This document shows positions 38,127 to 46,310 of a stretch of DNA of 64,000 bases, piece by piece. Under the pieces are notes generated by a model. It saw nothing but the letters and a program-made list of their open reading frames with translations. It did no database searches and had not been told where the DNA came from. Origin of the DNA: Leeuwenhoekiella aestuarii (GTDB taxonomy: Bacteria > Bacteroidota > Bacteroidia > Flavobacteriales > Flavobacteriaceae); contig NZ_QOVJ01000002.1 of the NCBI RefSeq assembly GCF_004104055.1, positions 620,001-684,000 on the forward strand, written 5' to 3'. How positions within the stretch are numbered: the stretch's first letter is position 1; each line of letters opens with the position of its first letter. The translations under genes and the position numbers were made by a program.

Positions 38127-38720
38127 TCACTTTTTTCGATCTTCTAAAACATGTTCAATATCCTGAAGTCCAAAACCTTTAGCTTTAAGTAAAATTAGAT
38201 AATGAAAAAGCAAATCGGCACTTTCATTAAGAAACAGATCATCGTCATCATCCTTAGCTTCTATCACAACCTCTACTGCTTCCTCCCCTACCTTCTGAGC
38301 TATCTTATTAATTCCTTTTCTAAAAAGATCGGCAACATAGCTTTTTTCGTTATCCTGATTGGCTTTACGTTCTGCAATAGTTTGCTCAAGATCTGAAAGA
38401 AACCCAAAAGACTGTTCATTATTTTCGCCCCAGCAATTGTCTGTTCCTGTATGACAAGTCGGCCCTTGTGGAATTACACTTATCAATAAAGTATCATTGT
38501 CACAATCGTTTTTTATAGAAACGAGATCTAAAAAATTACCACTTTCTTCACCTTTTGTCCAAAGGCGCTTTTTGCTACGGCTATAGAAGGTTACTTTTTT
38601 AGTTTCATTGGTTTTTAGATATGCTTCTTCATTCATATAACCCAGCATCAAAACTGTTTTTGTTTTAGCGTCCTGAATTATTGCAGGCACCAGGCCCTTT
38701 TCATCATAATTAATTTTCAT
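38127..38720 (-). CDS. hisIE: Bifunctional phosphoribosyl-AMP cyclohydrolase / phosphoribosyl-ATP pyrophosphohydrolase
   Basis: The HisI half (residues 1-105) shows GYMNEEAYLKTNETKKVTFY, SRSKKRLWTKGEESGN and the zinc-binding CDND ... CHTGTDNCW. The HisE half (about 112-197) shows RKGINKIAQKVGEEAVEVVIEAK and the ADLLFHYLILL helix. These are the second and third steps of histidine synthesis. The ATG at 38720 (MKINYDEKGLVPAI) is preferred over 38741 because it matches the family start and leaves a TTCGC/GCGAA hairpin upstream. Last gene of the operon. Confidence 0.95.
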   Translation of the reverse strand: MKINYDEKGLVPAIIQDAKTKTVLMLGYMNEEAYLKTNETKKVTFYSRSKKRLWTKGEESGNFLDLVSIKNDCDNDTLLISVIPQGPTCHTGTDNCWGENNEQSFGFLSDLEQTIAERKANQDNEKSYVADLFRKGINKIAQKVGEEAVEVVIEAKDDDDDLFLNESADLLFHYLILLKAKGFGLQDIEHVLEDRKK

Positions 38721-38734
38721 AACTCTTGAGTTAG

Positions 38735-38748
38735 TTCGCAAAGGCGAA
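38735..38748 (-). other. Start-proximal hairpin before hisIE
   Basis: TTCGC (38735-38739) and GCGAA (38744-38748) pair with a 4-nt loop, 14 bases upstream of the hisIE ATG on the minus strand. Part of the recurrent hairpin set. Confidence 0.5.
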
Positions 38749-38756
38749 AATTTTAT

Positions 38757-39512
38757 TTAAATCCGTACCGGAATATTTTTATTTTTTAATTCGAGTTTCA
38801 ACTCTAGGATGTCAATCTCATGAAAATGAAATACACTCGCTGCCAAAGCTGCATCAGCCTTTCCATTAATGAATGTATCTGTAAAATGATGCATCTTTCC
38901 CGCTCCACCTGAAGCAATAATTGGAATATTGAGCAGTTCACTTAGTTTTGCCAGGGCTTCATCAGCAAAACCGTTTTTAGTACCGTCGTGATCCATTGAC
39001 GTAAATAGGATCTCTCCAGCACCACGCTGCTCTACTTCCTGAGCCCATTCAAACAAATCTAATTCAGTGGGCACTTTACCTCCTACCAAATGCACTGTCC
39101 ATTTCCCATTGATCTGTTTTGCATCAATGGCGACCACAACACATTGTGAACCAAATTTTGCCGCTAACTCATTAATTAACTGCGGATTCTTCACTGCCGA
39201 AGAATTGATAGAGACTTTATCTGCTCCGTTCTGCAATAAAACATCTACATCTTCAACAGAAGAAATTCCGCCACCTACCGTAAACGGAATATTGATCTTT
39301 TCTGCGACGCGCAAAACCAGATCAGCTAAAGTTTTACGACGCTCTTCAGTAGCCGAAATATCGAGAAACACCAACTCGTCTGCACCGGTCTCTGCATACT
39401 TGGCTGCTAATTCTACAGGATCACCGGCATCGCGTAAAGCAACAAAATTGACACCTTTTACAGTTCTTCCGTTTTTGATATCCAGACAAGGAATTATTCG
39501 TTTTGTAAGCAC
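38757..39512 (-). CDS. hisF: Imidazole glycerol phosphate synthase cyclase subunit
   Basis: A TIM barrel of 251 residues starting [22 protein letters not shown]. The catalytic Asp is in CLD and in VVVAIDAKQ, and the phosphate loops are GGGISSV and ASGGAGK. With HisH it converts PRFAR and glutamine-derived ammonia to IGP and AICAR. The gene is preceded by a TTTCCGCC/GGCGGAAA hairpin in the hisA-hisF gap. Confidence 0.97.
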
Positions 39513-39530
39513 GTTATTCTACTTTTTACT

Positions 39531-39571
39531 TTTCCGCCATTCCATAAATAAAGAATAAACTTCGGCGGAAA
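39531..39571 (-). other. Intercistronic hairpin between hisA and hisF
   Basis: TTTCCGCC (39531-39538) and GGCGGAAA (39564-39571) are perfectly complementary, with a 25-nt loop. The stem ends 18 bases upstream of the hisF ATG. Same sequence theme as the other start-proximal hairpins. Confidence 0.6.
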
Positions 39572-39576
39572 ACTCA

Positions 39577-40329
39577 TTATTGATTCACTATAAATCCTTC
39601 CAATTGTTTCATTGAAATTCTTCCTTCATAAATGGCTTTACCGATAATGGTTCCTTCGCAACCCAGTTCAGCTAGTTTTGGTAATTCATCAAAATCAGAG
39701 ATACCACCTGAGGCTATTAGTTTAAAGTTCTTGACTGGCCCTTCTACATGCTCACCCTGACATTCTTCTAATATTTTCTTATAAAGATCAAAAGAGGGGC
39801 CTTCCAACATTCCGTCTTTGCTGATGTCTGTACAAATAACGTAAGAAATGCCTTCTTTCTGATACTCCTGTATAAACGGAATCAATTCTTCTTTAGATTC
39901 CTCTAACCAACCGCTAACGGCTACTTTTTCATCTTTAGCATCAGCTCCAAGAATGATTTTATCTGCACCAAAATTTGTTAACCAACTTTTAAAAGTCTCT
40001 CTATCTTTTACTGCAATGCTTCCTCCTGTAATTTGACTAGCACCACTTTCAAAAGCGATACGCAAATCATCATCGGTTTTTAAGCCACCACCAAAATCGA
40101 TTTTAAGGGAGGTTTGTGAAGCGATTTGCTCCAGAACTTTATGGTTTACTATATGTTTACTTTTCGCTCCGTCCAGATCAACCAGATGTAAAAATTTAAT
40201 TCCGTGTGCTTCAAATTCTTTAGCAACTTCTAACGGACTCTCGTTGTAAACCTTTTTAGTATCATAATCCCCTTTAGAAAGGCGTACGCACTTCCCGTCA
40301 ATAATATCTATTGCTGGTATAATTCTCAT
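39577..40329 (-). CDS. hisA: ProFAR isomerase
   Basis: 1-(5-phosphoribosyl)-5-[(5-phosphoribosylamino)methylideneamino]imidazole-4-carboxamide isomerase, a TIM barrel of 250 residues. The start is [22 protein letters not shown], with the catalytic Asp in AIDI and the second Asp in [12 protein letters not shown]. Phosphate loops are [11 protein letters not shown] and [11 protein letters not shown]. Its start overlaps the end of hisH by 4 bp, so the two are translationally coupled. Confidence 0.97.
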
Positions 40330-40907
40330 AAACTCAAGAAATTTTTAAGTATTTGTTCTCCAACGACACCTGATTTTTCCGGGTGAAATTGCACTCCGTA
40401 AAAATTTTCTTTTTGCAAAGCCGAAGCATAGTCGAGCTCATAATGTGTCGTTGCAATCATTTCAGCACATTTTGGCGCATAAAAACTATGAACCAGGTAC
40501 ATATGTGAGTTTTCAGGAATACTGGTCAAAAACTCGCTTTGCAAGTTTGTAATTTCATTCCAGCCTATTTGTGGAACTTTTACTTCTTTTGAAAACTTTA
40601 TCACATCTACATTAAAAATACCAAGTCCGGTAGTATCTCCTTCTGTAGAATGGTTACACATCAATTGCATACCCAGACATATACCCAGAACCGGTTGTTT
40701 TAAGGTTGGAATGATCTTATCTAATCCAGTAGCTTTTAGTTTAGCCATAGCACTGCTCGCCTCCCCTACGCCAGGAAAAATAACTTTATCTGCAGCTTTT
40801 ATTTCTTCAGCATCATCAGAAAGTACCGCATCTATTCCCAATCGTTTAAAAGCGAATTTGATGCTTTGTATATTTCCGGCACCGTAGTTTATAATTACTA
40901 ATTTCAT
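40326..40907 (-). CDS. hisH: Imidazole glycerol phosphate synthase glutaminase subunit
   Basis: Class I glutamine amidotransferase of 193 residues. The nucleophile Cys is in [12 protein letters not shown] and the His/Glu of the triad in [15 protein letters not shown]. The oxyanion-strand segment is [16 protein letters not shown]. Supplies ammonia to HisF. Overlaps hisA by 4 bp. Confidence 0.97.
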
Positions 40908-40917
40908 TTTTTAAACT

Positions 40918-42075
40918 TTAGAGCATTCCTTTTGTACTAGGCAAAACCATTTTATCAGGATCCCGTTTTACGGCTACTTTTATCGCTTTTGCAAAAGCTT
41001 TAAAAATGGCTTCAATTTTATGATGCTCATTGGTTCCTTCAGCTTTTACATTAAGATTCGCTCTGGCTCCATCGGTGAAAGATTTAAAAAAATGATAGAA
41101 CATTTCTGTTGGCATTTCTCCTATTTTCTCGCGTTTAAAATCTGCTTCCCAAACCAACCAGTTTCTGCCACCAAAATCAATTGCTACCTGTGCCAGACAG
41201 TCATCCATAGGCAGGCAAAATCCATAACGCTCTATACCAAGTTTATTTCCCAAAGCTTTGGCAAAGACTTCTCCCAGAGCAATTGCAGTATCTTCAATCG
41301 TATGGTGCTCATCAACTTCCAGATCGCCATCTACGCGAATCTTTAAATCCATAGAACCGTGGCGGGCCAACTGATCTAACATATGATCAAAAAAGGCTAA
41401 ACCGGTTTTGATATCACTTTTTCCGGTTCCGTCCAAGTTGAGTTCTATTTCAATATCGGTTTCATTTGTTTTTCTTGAAATGGAAGCGGTACGCTCTTTT
41501 AACTTTAAAAACTCATAGATCTCTTTCCAATCATTAGTTTCAAGAGCAATATAACTTTCTAATTCTTCACGCTTTGTAGTGATTTCATCAGAACCTAAAT
41601 CAGTATGATCGTTTATAAAAATTCCTTTAGCACCTAAATTTTTTGCTAGTTCGATATCTGTAATACGATCTCCAAAAACAAAGCTGTTTTCTAAATCATA
41701 TTCATCAGAGAAAAATTCGGTAAGCATACCAGTTCCTGGCTTACGCGTATTTGCATTTTCTTCAGGAAAAGTTTTGTCTATGAAAACATCGTCAAAAATC
41801 ACACCTTCATTTTCGAAGGATTTTAAAATGAAATTATGCACAGGCCAAAAGGTATCTTCAGGGAAAATATCAGTTCCTAAACCATCTTGATTGGTAATCA
41901 TCACTAGTTTATAATCGAGCTCTTTTGCGATTTTACTTAAATATCTAAAAACTTTTGGGTAAAAGGTTACTTTTTCAAAAGCATCGACCTGATAGCCGGG
42001 TGGTTCTTGTATAATCGTTCCGTCGCGATCTATAAACAGGACTTTTTGTTTTTTGGTGGTAGTTTCGGTAGTCAT
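40918..42075 (-). CDS. hisB: Bifunctional histidinol-phosphatase / imidazoleglycerol-phosphate dehydratase
   Basis: The N-terminal HAD phosphatase (residues 1-190) shows [20 protein letters not shown] and [15 protein letters not shown]. The C-terminal IGP dehydratase (about 197-385) shows [35 protein letters not shown] and [17 protein letters not shown], with the metal-binding His pairs. It therefore catalyses steps 6 and 8. The fused form is also found in enterobacteria. Confidence 0.96.
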
Positions 42076-42081
42076 ATTTTA

Positions 42082-43134
42082 TTAAGCTAGTTCTTTTAGT
42101 GCAGCAATTAGTTTCTCGTTTTCGGCAGGAGTTCCCACGGTGAACCGCAGCGTATTTTCACATAATGCCTGTGTGCTTCTGTTGCGTACTACAATTCCTT
42201 TTTTGATTAATTGATCGTATCGTTTATCAGCATCATCTACTCTGGCCAAAATAAAATTAGCCTCTGTAGGGAATATTTTATCAACAAAATTTACTTGAAG
42301 TAACACTTTAGATAAGACTTCTCTTTCGGTTAAAATTGAGCTTATTTCCTTTTGAATACTATCTGCATCCAAGATGCGTTCTAAGGCTTTTTTCTGAGTG
42401 AGTTCATTTACATTGTACGGAGGTTTAATTTTGTTGAGTACCGCTATAATCGCTGCGGAAGCATAACAAATTCCTAACCGTATTCCGGCTAAACCATAAG
42501 CTTTTGAAAGGGTTTGAATAATTACCAAATTTGGATAATTATGAAGTTTTGTTGACCAACTTTCACCTTTCATAAAATCAACATAAGCTTCATCAACAAC
42601 GACTATTCCTTTAAACGATTCTAACAATTCGCTAATCTTTTCTGCTTCAAAACTATTTGCAGTAGGATTGTTGGGAGAACATAGAAAGATCATTTTAGTC
42701 TGGTGATCTACCTGCTCTAAAACTTGCGCTACATTCGGCTGAAAGTGTTCAGTAAGCAATACTTCACGATTTGCAATATCATTAGTAGCTGCGAGTACAC
42801 TATACATACCGTATGTAGGTGGCAGTGTAATTACATTGTCTTTTTTAGGTTCGCAAAAGGCTCTAAACAATAAATCTAAAACTTCGTCGCTCCCATTTCC
42901 TAAAAGAATCTGATCTGTAGGAACCCGCTTTGCAGTTGATAAATGCTGCTTTAAAGTTATTTGTTGCGGATCTGGATATCGGTTTACCCCATTATTATAT
43001 GGATTCTCATTAGCATCCAGAAAAATCATATCCTCATTAAAATCTTTAAACTCATCACGAGCTGAAGAATACGGCTTGAGTTTTGAAACATTTTCACGCA
43101 CCAGCCTTTCTAAATTAAATGTTGAAGTACTCAT
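42082..43134 (-). CDS. hisC: Histidinol-phosphate aminotransferase
   Basis: Fold-type I PLP enzyme of 350 residues. It shows LDANENPYNNGVNRYPDPQQ at the N-terminus, ILLGNGSDEVLDLLFRAF, SPNNPTANSF, VVDEAYVDF, and the PLP lysine in IQTLSKAYGLAGIRLG. Converts imidazole-acetol phosphate to histidinol phosphate. Two bases separate it from hisD. Confidence 0.96.
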   Translation of the reverse strand: MSTSTFNLERLVRENVSKLKPYSSARDEFKDFNEDMIFLDANENPYNNGVNRYPDPQQITLKQHLSTAKRVPTDQILLGNGSDEVLDLLFRAFCEPKKDNVITLPPTYGMYSVLAATNDIANREVLLTEHFQPNVAQVLEQVDHQTKMIFLCSPNNPTANSFEAEKISELLESFKGIVVVDEAYVDFMKGESWSTKLHNYPNLVIIQTLSKAYGLAGIRLGICYASAAIIAVLNKIKPPYNVNELTQKKALERILDADSIQKEISSILTEREVLSKVLLQVNFVDKIFPTEANFILARVDDADKRYDQLIKKGIVVRNRSTQALCENTLRFTVGTPAENEKLIAALKELA

Positions 43135-43136
43135 AA

Positions 43137-44426
43137 TTAGTTTTTAGCTAATTTATTTAAACGTAATGTAACCGCATTTTTGTGAGCCTGTAAGCCTTCT
43201 GCTTCAGCCATTAATTCAATTGCGTTACCTATATTTTTTATACCTTCAGGAGACAATTCCTGAAAGGTCATACTCTTCGTAAAGCTATCTAGATTTACAC
43301 CACTGTACTGTTTTGCATAACCATTTGTTGGTAATGTATGATTAGTTCCTGAAGCATAATCTCCGGCACTTTCCGGCGTATAATTGCCTATAAAAACCGA
43401 CCCTGCGTTAGCGATATTATCTACATAAAATGCATTATCATTGGTCGCAACAATAAAATGTTCCGGACCGTATTCATCTATCAATTCAAGAGCTGTTTTA
43501 TGATCTTTTACATAAATGAGCTTACTATTTGCAATAGCTTTTTCAGCAATAGATTTACGGGGGAGTTGAACCAATTGAGTATTGATTTCATCTTCCACAG
43601 AAACAATCAATCCTTTTGAAGTTGAGACCAAAATCACTTGACTGTCAACACCGTGCTCAGCCTGGCTCAATAAGTCTGAAGCTACAAAAGAAGCATCTGC
43701 AGTATCATCTGCAACTATCAGTAATTCTGAGGGACCAGCCGGCATATCTATACTCACATTGTATTTTGTCGCCATTTGCTTTGCAACAGTCACAAACTGA
43801 TTACCGGGACCAAAAATTTTATACACTTTAGAAATACTTTCAGTACCAAAGGTCATTGCTCCTATGGCTTGAATACCCCCTACTTTGTAAATTTTATCAA
43901 TACCACAAAGTTGAGCTGTAAATAAAATCGCCGGGTTGATGTTACCGTTCTTGTCTGGTGGAGTACACAAAACAACTTCTTTACATCCTGCAATTTTAGC
44001 AGGAATCGCGAGCATCAATATTGTCGAAAAAAGTGGCGCTGTACCACCGGGAATATAAAGTCCAACCTTTTGAATGGGTCGTTTCTCTTGCCAGCAAATA
44101 ACGCCCGGAGCAGTTTCAACACTTACAGGAGTTGTTTTTTGTGCTTGGTGAAATACTTCTATATTCTTTTTAGCAAGTTCTATTGCTTCTTTTAAATCTT
44201 GTGAAAGCTCATTTACCGAAGTATTTATTTCATCTTGCTGTACTTCAAGATTATTTATCAAAATTCCATCAAACTTCTCTGTATACTGCTTAACAGCAGA
44301 GTCACCATAAGATTTAATATTGTCAAAAATCTCAAGAACCGTACTTTCAATCTGATCGTAAGTCTGCGTTGGGCGTTTAAGAATTTCTGCCCAGGTAGAA
44401 CGATCTGGATTTTCTATTTTATTCAT
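43137..44426 (-). CDS. hisD: Histidinol dehydrogenase
   Basis: A zinc-dependent NAD enzyme of 429 residues for the last two oxidations to histidine. Signature segments are GLYIPGGTAPLFSTILMLAI, DMPAGPSELLIVADD, LLSQAEHGVDSQVILV (zinc Gln/His) and GTNHTLPTNGYAK. Preceded by a perfect TTTCGCA/TGCGAAA hairpin 11 bases upstream of the ATG. Confidence 0.96.
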   Translation of the reverse strand: MNKIENPDRSTWAEILKRPTQTYDQIESTVLEIFDNIKSYGDSAVKQYTEKFDGILINNLEVQQDEINTSVNELSQDLKEAIELAKKNIEVFHQAQKTTPVSVETAPGVICWQEKRPIQKVGLYIPGGTAPLFSTILMLAIPAKIAGCKEVVLCTPPDKNGNINPAILFTAQLCGIDKIYKVGGIQAIGAMTFGTESISKVYKIFGPGNQFVTVAKQMATKYNVSIDMPAGPSELLIVADDTADASFVASDLLSQAEHGVDSQVILVSTSKGLIVSVEDEINTQLVQLPRKSIAEKAIANSKLIYVKDHKTALELIDEYGPEHFIVATNDNAFYVDNIANAGSVFIGNYTPESAGDYASGTNHTLPTNGYAKQYSGVNLDSFTKSMTFQELSPEGIKNIGNAIELMAEAEGLQAHKNAVTLRLNKLAKN

Positions 44427-44453: not shown

Positions 44454-45314
44454 TTACAATACCATTTTTTCGATATCACTAACTAGAATTCCCTGAGCTC
44501 CAGAATCTTTTAATTTGTCTATAACCTCCCAGAATTCATTTTTATCAATTACTGAATGTACACTGCTCCATCCTTCTTCTGCAAGCGGAAGAACTGTAGG
44601 GCTTTTCATCCCGGGAAGCATTTTTATGATTTCATCTAAACGATCATTAGGTGCATTAAGCAATACATATTTATAATCGCGACCTTTTAGAACAGATTGT
44701 ATTCTGAAAAGTAGTTTATCTAAGATTTCTTGACGCTCTGTGTCTATTTTAGACGAAACAGCAAGCACAGCCTCAGACTTGAGCATTACTTCAACCTCTT
44801 TAAGCCCGTTTTTAAATAACGTGCTCCCGCTTGAAACAATATCACAAATAGCATCGGCAAGACCAATATTGGGTGCAATCTCTACAGACCCGTTAATTAT
44901 ATGCAAATCAGCTTTTACATTAAATTGAGAAAGGTACCCTAAAACAGTATTAGGATAAGACGTTGCAATCTTTTTACCCTCAAAGTCCTTTACAGAATCA
45001 TATTTGGTTCCTTTAGGAACAGCTAGTGAAACACGACATTTTGAAAAACCCAACTTTTGAGCAATGGCTATGTCGTCTCCTTTTTCTATCAAAACGTTTT
45101 CTCCAATTATAGCGATATCTACAACCCCATCTCTCAAATACTGAGGTATATCACCATTACGCAAATAAAACACCTCTAATGGAAAATTTGCAGCACTGGC
45201 CTTGAGTTGATCGCGCCCGTTATCTATAGATACTCCGCAATCTTTTAAAATTTGCAGAGAGTCTTCATTAAGTCTGCCTGATTTTTGAATAGCAATTCTA
45301 ATTTTTTTTGTCAT
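44454..45314 (-). CDS. hisG: ATP phosphoribosyltransferase (long form)
   Basis: Catalyses the first step of histidine synthesis. The 286 residues from the ATG at 45314 (MTKKIRIAIQKSGRLNEDSL) include the periplasmic-binding-like catalytic core (GDIPQYLRDGVVDIAIIGEN, ADAICDIVSSGSTL). A C-terminal ACT-like domain of the long HisG form follows (VLPLAEEGWSSVHSVI), which gives histidine feedback inhibition. The frame is open to 45398, but that part overlaps the attenuator hairpin and is not coding. First structural gene of the operon. Confidence 0.95.
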   Translation of the reverse strand: MTKKIRIAIQKSGRLNEDSLQILKDCGVSIDNGRDQLKASAANFPLEVFYLRNGDIPQYLRDGVVDIAIIGENVLIEKGDDIAIAQKLGFSKCRVSLAVPKGTKYDSVKDFEGKKIATSYPNTVLGYLSQFNVKADLHIINGSVEIAPNIGLADAICDIVSSGSTLFKNGLKEVEVMLKSEAVLAVSSKIDTERQEILDKLLFRIQSVLKGRDYKYVLLNAPNDRLDEIIKMLPGMKSPTVLPLAEEGWSSVHSVIDKNEFWEVIDKLKDSGAQGILVSDIEKMVL

Positions 45315-45353
45315 CTTACATTGGTTTGTTAGCTTGAGCCACCCTAAACAGAA

Positions 45354-45380
45354 AACCCGTTTGAATGACTCAAACGGGTT
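45354..45380 (-). terminator. Attenuator terminator of the his operon
   Basis: AACCCGTTTGA and TCAAACGGGTT form a perfect 11-bp stem (arms 45354-45364 and 45370-45380) with a 5-nt loop. On the minus strand TTTTCTGTTT follows. It lies between the leader peptide stop and hisG, 40 bases upstream of the hisG ATG. The 5' arm (minus sense) can instead pair with the end of the leader ORF: CGTTTGAGT at 45368-45376 with ACTCAAGCG at 45425-45433, one G-U wobble. This would be the antiterminator. Confidence 0.88.
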
Positions 45381-45418
45381 ATTGTTATTTTTATACATGA
45401 ATTACAAATACAACATCT

Positions 45419-45475
45419 TTACCTCGCTTGAGTGCGTGAATAAAAATGATGATGATGTAATGCTGTTCCTTTCAT
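45419..45475 (-). CDS. hisL: his operon leader peptide, 18 aa, with four His codons
   Basis: The ATG at 45475 opens a frame of 18 codons reading MKGTALHHHHFYSRTQAR and stop. Four consecutive CAT codons lie at 45446-45457. Downstream are the antiterminator segment (codons 14-17) and the terminator at 45354-45380. In enterobacteria the equivalent leader senses charged tRNA-His: stalling at His codons frees the antiterminator segment, while full translation covers it and the terminator forms. Every element needed for that mechanism is visible here. It is too short for standard gene calling. Confidence 0.88.
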   Translation of the reverse strand: MKGTALHHHHFYSRTQAR

Positions 45476-45566
45476 AAATAGGAGACGAATTTAAAAAAAA
45501 AATACGATTAACTTGCATTATATCGAATAGATTTAACCAACTGATGATCATTTTATCACAATGTGT

Positions 45567-45574
45567 TATTTTTG
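45567..45574 (+). promoter_or_regulatory. Putative -7 box TATTTTTG for the OmpA-like gene
   Basis: An exact TAnnTTTG match 16 bases before the ATG at 45591, so transcription would start only a few bases upstream of the start codon. No TTG at the usual -33 spacing. Confidence 0.45.
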
Positions 45575-45590
45575 AGGAAATTCAGAAATA

Positions 45591-46310
45591 ATGAGAAATT
45601 TCTTAATAGCCTTCTCCGTATTCCTATGCTGGTGCGTAATAGGGCTGTATTTTCTGAATTCTAGCGGCTCTACAACTAGAAATAGTCTTTTTATAAAGTA
45701 TAAGCCAATTGAAAATAATATTCAAAAATTAGTGCTTGATTCCTTAACTACCTCGCAATCTTTGGATAACCTTGAAGGTAGCAATTCTGAAATTACAACT
45801 AAGAATACGTATACAGATAGCAGCCTTAATAGTTCTGGAACCAATGACAAGCTTATAGAAGAGCTACAGAGCAGACTGGAGCGAACCAAACACGCTATGG
45901 AGGATGACCAAGAACGCCTTAGATTAGCTAAATTAAAGCAAGTAGAAGTACACTCTAAATCTGTGGTTAGAAATGTTGACATAACATTTAGACCTGTATT
46001 TAAAATGGCACGATTAGTAAGAGACCAAAATGCGGCAGAATTTTTAGCTGAAGTAAAACGTAAATTAAGAATAAAACCGCAAGCCAGAATTGACATTATA
46101 GGATATACTGATCATATTGGCGATGATAGAGATAATTATGAACTCGCTCTTGATCAGGCTGAAAAGATTAGGTTATTTCTAATAAAAAGCCTTAATTTAC
46201 CTGAAAATCAGGTTTTTGCATATTCTAAAGGAGAAGATGATCCACTTTACACCAGAGATATGGAAGATAAAATTAAGTTGAATAATAGATACGAATTGAT
46301 ATTTAATTAA
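45591..46310 (+). CDS. OmpA-domain protein with N-terminal membrane anchor
   Basis: An N-terminal hydrophobic helix (FLIAFSVFLCWCVIGLYFL) is followed by a Ser/Thr/Asn-rich linker and a coiled coil (residues 85-120, EELQSRLERTKHAMEDDQER). The C-terminal about 100 residues form an OmpA-like peptidoglycan-binding domain (ARIDIIGYTDHIGDDRDNYELA, then AEKIRLFLI). It probably tethers an envelope complex to peptidoglycan. Its stop overlaps the start of the next gene by one base (TAATG), which indicates coupling. Confidence 0.82.
   Translation: MRNFLIAFSVFLCWCVIGLYFLNSSGSTTRNSLFIKYKPIENNIQKLVLDSLTTSQSLDNLEGSNSEITTKNTYTDSSLNSSGTNDKLIEELQSRLERTKHAMEDDQERLRLAKLKQVEVHSKSVVRNVDITFRPVFKMARLVRDQNAAEFLAEVKRKLRIKPQARIDIIGYTDHIGDDRDNYELALDQAEKIRLFLIKSLNLPENQVFAYSKGEDDPLYTRDMEDKIKLNNRYELIFN

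Follow-up and report, generated by a model that had tools for sequence, protein, structure and literature searches.

In enterobacteria, the his attenuator is a translation-coupled choice of RNA structures. The 5' strand of the E. coli his antiterminator is unlike the one in the locus described here, where the end of the leader open reading frame (ORF) serves. The E. coli hisL region (L366, NC_000913.3) shares with this locus a leader peptide with a run of His codons upstream of hisG and a terminator. It differs in that the MFE fold after hisL keeps the terminator intact, and by eye it has no downstream complement like the one called strand C below.

Structured 5' elements were reported in 2021 in Flavobacterium psychrophilum; the one upstream of hisG is conserved in other Flavobacteriaceae genera and has no Rfam match, and the transcriptome of that species gave “strong clues” that leader peptides attenuate amino-acid operons (PMC9723704). 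The passages of that paper on the hisG element do not call it a His-codon attenuator and describe no third strand and no class-wide spread. Passages of a 2010 survey place leader-peptide systems only in Proteobacteria and Actinobacteria, besides ermC and the authors' own case in bacilli, and the strings “bacteroid-” and “flavobact-” are absent from its main text (PMC2965389). Excerpts from a study of Bacteroidota his genes mention attenuation once, for enterobacteria (PMC8305728), and those from a B. thetaiotaomicron transcriptome describe 5'-UTR ORFs as reminiscent of leader peptides in general (PMC7366714). Leader genes near structural genes are treated for many phyla, Bacteroidetes included, in passages that give no description of the element studied here (PMC4833913).

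The basic form of the his attenuator in this study is of a known kind and has been partly reported. Lopatovskaya et al. (2010) reportedly carried out a comparative attenuation study, in which his leaders of Bacteroidetes may already be predicted. Nothing like strand C was found in the excerpts of the matches listed in the attenuation and leader-peptide literature, a search whose scope lay mostly outside subscription journals. Strand C makes the his attenuator differ from the known form and is new here.

Leader, terminator and antiterminator upstream of hisG

The window is the whole stretch of 64,000 nucleotides of Leeuwenhoekiella aestuarii DNA that was analyzed. The features of the his locus, all on the minus strand, are as follows, with the basis of each in parentheses.

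45486..45493, minus strand: TAAATTCG, possible -7 promoter box, 10 nt upstream of the leader ATG (sequence; genus relatives by eye)
45419..45475, minus strand: His leader ORF, 18 codons plus TAA, MKGTALHHHHFYSRTQAR and stop (sequence; His-codon leader in 223/223 family loci)
45446..45457, minus strand: four CAT (His) codons, codons 7-10 of the leader ORF (sequence)
45425..45433, minus strand: strand a, putative 5' partner of the antiterminator, last leader codons ACT CAA GCG, ACTCAAGCG (sequence, comparison, fold)
45370..45380, minus strand: strand A, terminator 5' arm AACCCGTTTGA, common partner of a, B and C (sequence, fold)
45365..45369, minus strand: terminator loop GTCAT, which covaries with C (comparison)
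45354..45364, minus strand: strand B, terminator 3' arm TCAAACGGGTT (sequence)
45346..45353, minus strand: T-rich tail TTCTGTTT (sequence)
45332..45351, minus strand: strand C, core GGGTGGCTCAAGC at 45332-45344 and extended arm 45332-45351, complementary to A, the loop and the start of B (fold, comparison)
44454..45314, minus strand: hisG, first gene of hisGDCBHAF-IE (ORF and NCBIfam)
38127..44426, minus strand: hisD, hisC, hisB, hisH, hisA, hisF, hisIE (ORFs and NCBIfam)

The original prediction placed an 18-codon ORF with four CAT codons upstream of hisG, and this ORF was recovered at 45475-45419 with its CAT codons at 45457-45446 (minus strand). It is the one short ORF with at least four consecutive His codons in the 64-kb window; one other short ORF in the window has a run of three, and a run of four occurred in 0/20 block shuffles. 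The operon was predicted as hisGDCBHAFIE, and NCBIfam assigned its eight ORFs to hisG, D, C, B, H, A, F and IE, in that order. The hisG protein and its counterpart in Leeuwenhoekiella polynyae (L144) are 100% identical. Two terminator-like sites, which are one hairpin scored on both strands, were found in 45250-45700, against a shuffle mean of 0.1. The 11-bp hairpin is perfect, as predicted, while the T-tract is interrupted. The region 45475-45330, from the leader through the terminator to C, has a folding z-score of -5.0, and 0/200 shuffles folded equally well. None of 4227 Rfam families, leader and T-box families included, reached its gathering score in the window.

The 9-bp pairing predicted between the terminator 5' arm and the end of the leader is present, with ACTCAAGCG (45433-45425) opposite CGTTTGAGT (45376-45368) and one G-U among the nine pairs. 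In the window, RNAfold extends this a:A helix by GGU:ACC beyond a bulged A, and the predicted energies are -20.3 kcal/mol for the antiterminator region and -14.9 kcal/mol for the terminator.

A scan for sigma-70-type promoters found none at the his leader. The sequence TAAATTCG was read as a possible -7 box after the Bacteroidota -7 consensus, and similar boxes were seen by eye in genus relatives. With 10 nt between the end of this box and the leader ATG, the 5' UTR of the leader mRNA may be very short. Starting from an in-frame ATG at 45398, the hisG frame would run across the terminator and code for 314 aa; this codon is ACG in L. polynyae, so the upstream start is probably not used. The intergenic region that holds the his leader is bounded on its other side by a divergent OmpA-like gene (45591-46310, plus strand).

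The comparison rests on 223 hisG loci from the family, which comprise 13 genus, 130 family and 80 named records that overlap and contain 207 distinct upstream regions. The 130 family loci (30 plus 100) came from the 250 genomes with a match among 299 sampled and were the best-scoring ones, with no random draw, and the named records are the best 80 of 167. In addition, 26 hisG loci were taken from the order (4 of them Flavobacteriaceae), 19 from the class outside the order, and 24 further loci from the phylum, 21 of them outside the class.

In 220/223 family loci, an automatic scan detected a short ORF upstream of hisG with a run of two or more His codons, and the three others (L020, L048, L058) have leaders with separated His codons by eye. 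The longest run among the 220 loci is two codons in 16, three in 111, four in 89, five in 3 and six in 1. In 197/220, the stop codon ends 27 nt past the last His codon. A short ORF with three consecutive His codons (HHH) occurs in 204/223 family upstream regions, compared with 11/3990 random 400-bp stretches of the window. A terminator-like hairpin was found in 217/220 loci by a strict scan and in 223/223 with one mismatch allowed; the loci that failed the strict scan (L181, L019, L051) pass with one mismatch. Thus, the alternative that leader ORF and hairpin stand together by coincidence, the hairpin being an ordinary terminator near divergent genes, has practically no probability, even though the hairpin scores on the plus strand too: leader and hairpin are kept in 223/223 family loci with the spacing fixed in 197/220, the antiterminator covaries, and the neighboring gene (45591-46310, plus strand) is divergent and needs no terminator here.

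Beyond the family, HHH is found in 18/26 order loci and in 13/19 class loci outside the order. A looser criterion of three His codons anywhere gives 24/26 and 18/19, and is also satisfied by 425/3990 random stretches. In the phylum sample, a short ORF with at least three His codons precedes hisG in 14/24 loci, 11 of these among the 21 outside the class. That His leaders are common across the class Bacteroidia, as these scans of sequence indicate, is new here. Five loci of one family outside the class (L342, L349, L351, L352, L362) have hisG leaders with 9-10 His codons and no obvious intrinsic terminator, which suggests another control route in that family.

Pairing between the end of the leader ORF and the 5' arm of the terminator reached the chosen score in 173/176 nonredundant loci with a usable leader, compared with 182/528 shuffled leader ends. 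Two positions covary. The loop base after GAG pairs with the opposing leader base in 78/132 loci, where 52.3 were expected (0/5000 permutations); in the leaders displayed, this base stands at the first position of a codon, and a change in it alters the amino acid (Thr, Ser, Ala or Pro). Similarly, the Gln codon is CAG in 8/8 loci with C for the second T in the 5' arm (GTCTGA), compared with 30/155 loci with T. The terminal a:A helix is in the MFE of 152/152 loci, which had been preselected for the 27-nt spacing and the arm motif, and by predicted energies the antiterminator is stronger than the terminator in 116/152. The ratio of G-U to A-C in a:A is 54:33, with no clear skew, in a fixed 9-nt window that includes the usual A-C beside the core. 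For a possible protector structure, which would sequester strand a while the leader is untranslated, the folds are mixed: the leader upstream of the terminator folds better than shuffles, with a median z of -3.3 (156 loci), but the mean pairing probability of strand a exceeds 0.5 in only 56/156.

The consensus fold of the region from a to A has six nearly invariant pairs. An inner hairpin between a and A appears in single folds and was rejected, being absent from the consensus fold. After the leader stop (45405-45418), many relatives have a stretch like ATGTTGTAT or AATGTATTG, which forms a hairpin in single folds and has no support from the consensus fold.

These comparisons indicate that the locus is very likely a ribosome-mediated transcription attenuator of the his operon. 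When His-tRNA is short, the ribosome would stall on leader codons 7-10, just short of strand a. Strand a would then be left free, a:A would form in place of the terminator, and RNA polymerase would read into hisG. When His-tRNA is plentiful, a ribosome at the stop codon would cover a, so that A pairs with B and transcription terminates. The footprint of a ribosome usually extends some 12 nt past the first nucleotide of the A-site codon. In the window the last His codon lies 12 nt from strand a, so with this footprint a stall at any of the four His codons would free a, and a ribosome at the stop codon would cover it. The geometry of the leader spacing is what the attenuation mechanism needs, and it is from this geometry that we infer the part of the ribosome.

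The original prediction had proposed aligning hisG leader regions across Flavobacteriaceae to see whether His runs are conserved and stems covary, and both proved to be the case (His codons in 223/223; a:A in 173/176, covarying). Its extension of the his-attenuation logic to this locus is supported by the comparison; the account was incomplete, since it missed a conserved strand, C, downstream of the interval it covered.

Strand C and its pairing with the terminator hairpin

RNAfold of the leader picks a longer hairpin over the terminator. In this hairpin (H:C), the terminator sequence pairs with a downstream stretch ending in GGGTGGCTCAAGC. A shuffle test compared the complementarity of the downstream sequence to its own terminator hairpin with that of mononucleotide shuffles, and was passed at p <= 0.01 by 11/13 genus, 81/130 family and 62/80 named loci, or 154/223 family loci. 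It was also passed by 15/26 order loci, three of them from the same family, which leaves 12/22 from other families (seven families by label). Outside the order, C was found in 0/18 class loci, a figure that as a control is slightly overstated because the hairpins of L261, L262 and L265 were mis-called. C was not significant by the shuffle test in 69/223 family loci, and thus the operon can do without it.

Several results argue that C is a selected RNA pairing. First, C coevolves with its hairpin. In a swap test on 202 nonredundant of 249 loci, the own partner scored -16.4 kcal/mol and a foreign partner -12.1 kcal/mol, a mean gain of 4.3 (0/2000 permutations). Among 97 disjoint pairs of nearest relatives with different loops, taken with no selection on pairing and not as strict tree contrasts, the own combination was better in 82, the swapped one in 11, and 4 were tied. 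When the pair test was limited to strongly pairing loci, the own combination was better in 56, the swap in 4, with 2 ties.

Secondly, G-U is much commoner than A-C in the pairing of C. With a register that has no preference between G-U and A-C, the C score was passed by 110/187 loci, compared with 13/561 shuffles. The ratio of G-U to A-C was 143:25 in the 110 passing loci and 26:16 in the 13 passing shuffles, and it was 119:23 over the 81 distinct pairs. G-U far above A-C indicates RNA pairing in the mRNA sense only. An earlier version of this count gave 198:185 over flanks in the significant group; because the energy-based p-value that defined the group itself favors G-U, it was replaced by the preference-free register.

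Third, the position of C is tight relative to the gene. In the window, the end of C lies 17 nt from the hisG ATG. Among 94 loci, the median distance to the AUG is 16 nt (IQR 14-17), the spacer between terminator and C is looser (IQR 13-22), and C is 13 nt long in 54/94. In addition, C recurs with different sequences, for example in L247, L224 and L107. Inserts resembling palindromic repeats (CCCG...CGGG) lie between terminator and hisG in L071, L112 and L025.

Inverted repeats can homogenize without selection, and C might accordingly be a functionless mutational by-product of template switching that mends quasi-palindromes in DNA. DNA-level repair gives no such asymmetry as the excess of G-U over A-C, which is specific to RNA in the mRNA sense, and the tight position relative to the AUG and the recurrence of C with different sequences (L247, L224, L107) also speak against this explanation, which we regard as highly improbable. 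On these comparisons of sequence we are highly confident that C is a real, selected RNA pairing.

Other attenuators of the genus served as controls. Leader peptides and terminators also precede pheA (MSYVPYFFNRYYFFFFWREMGPL), ilvD (MRKQLISVRSIIVIKLF) and trpE (ending NTWWWISQQ), both in the genome studied (L280, L294, L330) and in genus relatives, which makes attenuation look like a general feature of amino-acid operons here. At p <= 0.05 in the shuffle test, C was detected at 0/13 pheA and 0/12 trpE loci, and at 2/12 ilvD loci, one of which has a mis-called hairpin (L293). The 13-mer C score was reached by 3/37 control loci, namely L272 (pheA, 20), L293 (ilvD, 20) and L295 (ilvD, 18.5). This control set leaves out ilvD L284, the fragment L296 and eight weak second trpE-family matches (L334-L341), and thrA loci were excluded because the flank fell short of the gene start, as seen in the two loci inspected. 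The counts at pheA (0/13), trpE (0/12) and ilvD (2/12) reject C as a general attenuator part in the genus.

Possible roles of strand C

In the window, the predicted energy of the H:C hairpin is -22.0 kcal/mol, compared with -14.9 kcal/mol for the terminator, and the RNAfold equilibrium with a stalled ribosome gives H:C 0.97 and a:A 0.01. Because equilibrium favors H:C over a:A, the attenuation model needs a kinetic order of events. C is transcribed only after the terminator has been passed, and thus it cannot act on that termination event. In readthrough RNA, C, made last, would capture A and the loop to give a longer hairpin that ends about 16 nt before the hisG AUG. Since a and C compete for the same A bases, we infer a second, post-transcriptional layer in which C would reduce translation of hisG except when A is held by a. 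Such control of hisG translation by C in readthrough mRNA is a guess, to which we give somewhat less than an even chance. We are equally tentative about the wider proposal that the Flavobacteriales his leader is a three-partner switch, in which the leader end, B and C would contest A and the loop, so that one stalled ribosome could govern transcription readthrough and also how the resulting mRNA is translated or what becomes of it.

In Flavobacterium johnsoniae, low structure between -20 and +20 and adenines at positions -12 and -13 favor initiation of translation (PMC6847099); the edge of the C hairpin lies at about -16. In the window, the hisG start region is predicted to be almost equally open in the states compared. 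Predicted accessibility was also compared in 63 loci drawn from the 128 nonredundant loci with C. Sequestering A lengthened the unpaired run that immediately precedes the AUG in 22 loci, shortened it in 17 and left it unchanged in 24. The mean unpaired probability at -30..-1 rose from 0.52 to 0.57, being higher in 36 and lower in 11 of the 63 loci, a small rise that follows trivially from freeing C. Control of translation by opening of the hisG start thus has no clear support in the window or in the 63 loci, and it is kept on the strength of the position of C and of the competition for A. Passages on Bacillus subtilis vmlR describe one leader with both transcription and translation attenuation, as guessed here for C (PMC9226507). 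The difference is that vmlR is an antibiotic resistance factor and that the translation layer of his is a guess without clear support.

Two other functions of C were considered. First, C could be a processing or stability element, a hairpin of 13-20 bp that is cut by an RNase or protects the 5' region of the his mRNA, with no sensing of histidine. The greater stability of H:C than of the terminator in the window, the tight distance from C to the AUG and the lack of a consistent change between states in the unpaired stretch before the AUG all fit such an element. Against it, C pairs with the switch strand and the loop, and 54/94 C strands are only 13 nt long, which is short for an RNase III substrate, so we consider this role unlikely, with an appreciable chance of being right.

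Secondly, the terminated leader RNA could act in trans, its exposed terminator loop pairing with C of existing his mRNAs and shutting them off when histidine returns. As the accessible part of the hairpin, the loop could serve as a seed; C is complementary to it and has coevolved with it where the loops of relatives differ, and a trans role of an attenuator product has been reported for the Sinorhizobium trp leader (PMC7298713). In the Sinorhizobium system the trans role is that of the leader peptide, whereas an RNA complement is all that is known here. The loop sequence also occurs in cis, where its local concentration is far higher, and leader RNA would be required to accumulate; we rate action in trans as decidedly unlikely.

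Implications for Bacteroidota

Leader-peptide attenuation is textbook knowledge in enterobacteria and is little described, in the literature searched, for Bacteroidota, where the coupling of transcription and translation is poorly known. If confirmed, strand C, which predicts a layer of control after termination, would be a new attenuator part. That the His run, its distance from the antiterminator and the pairing are all conserved implies close coupling between ribosome and RNA polymerase in these bacteria. The his leader would thus offer a ready test of coupling in a phylum that does without Shine-Dalgarno sequences.
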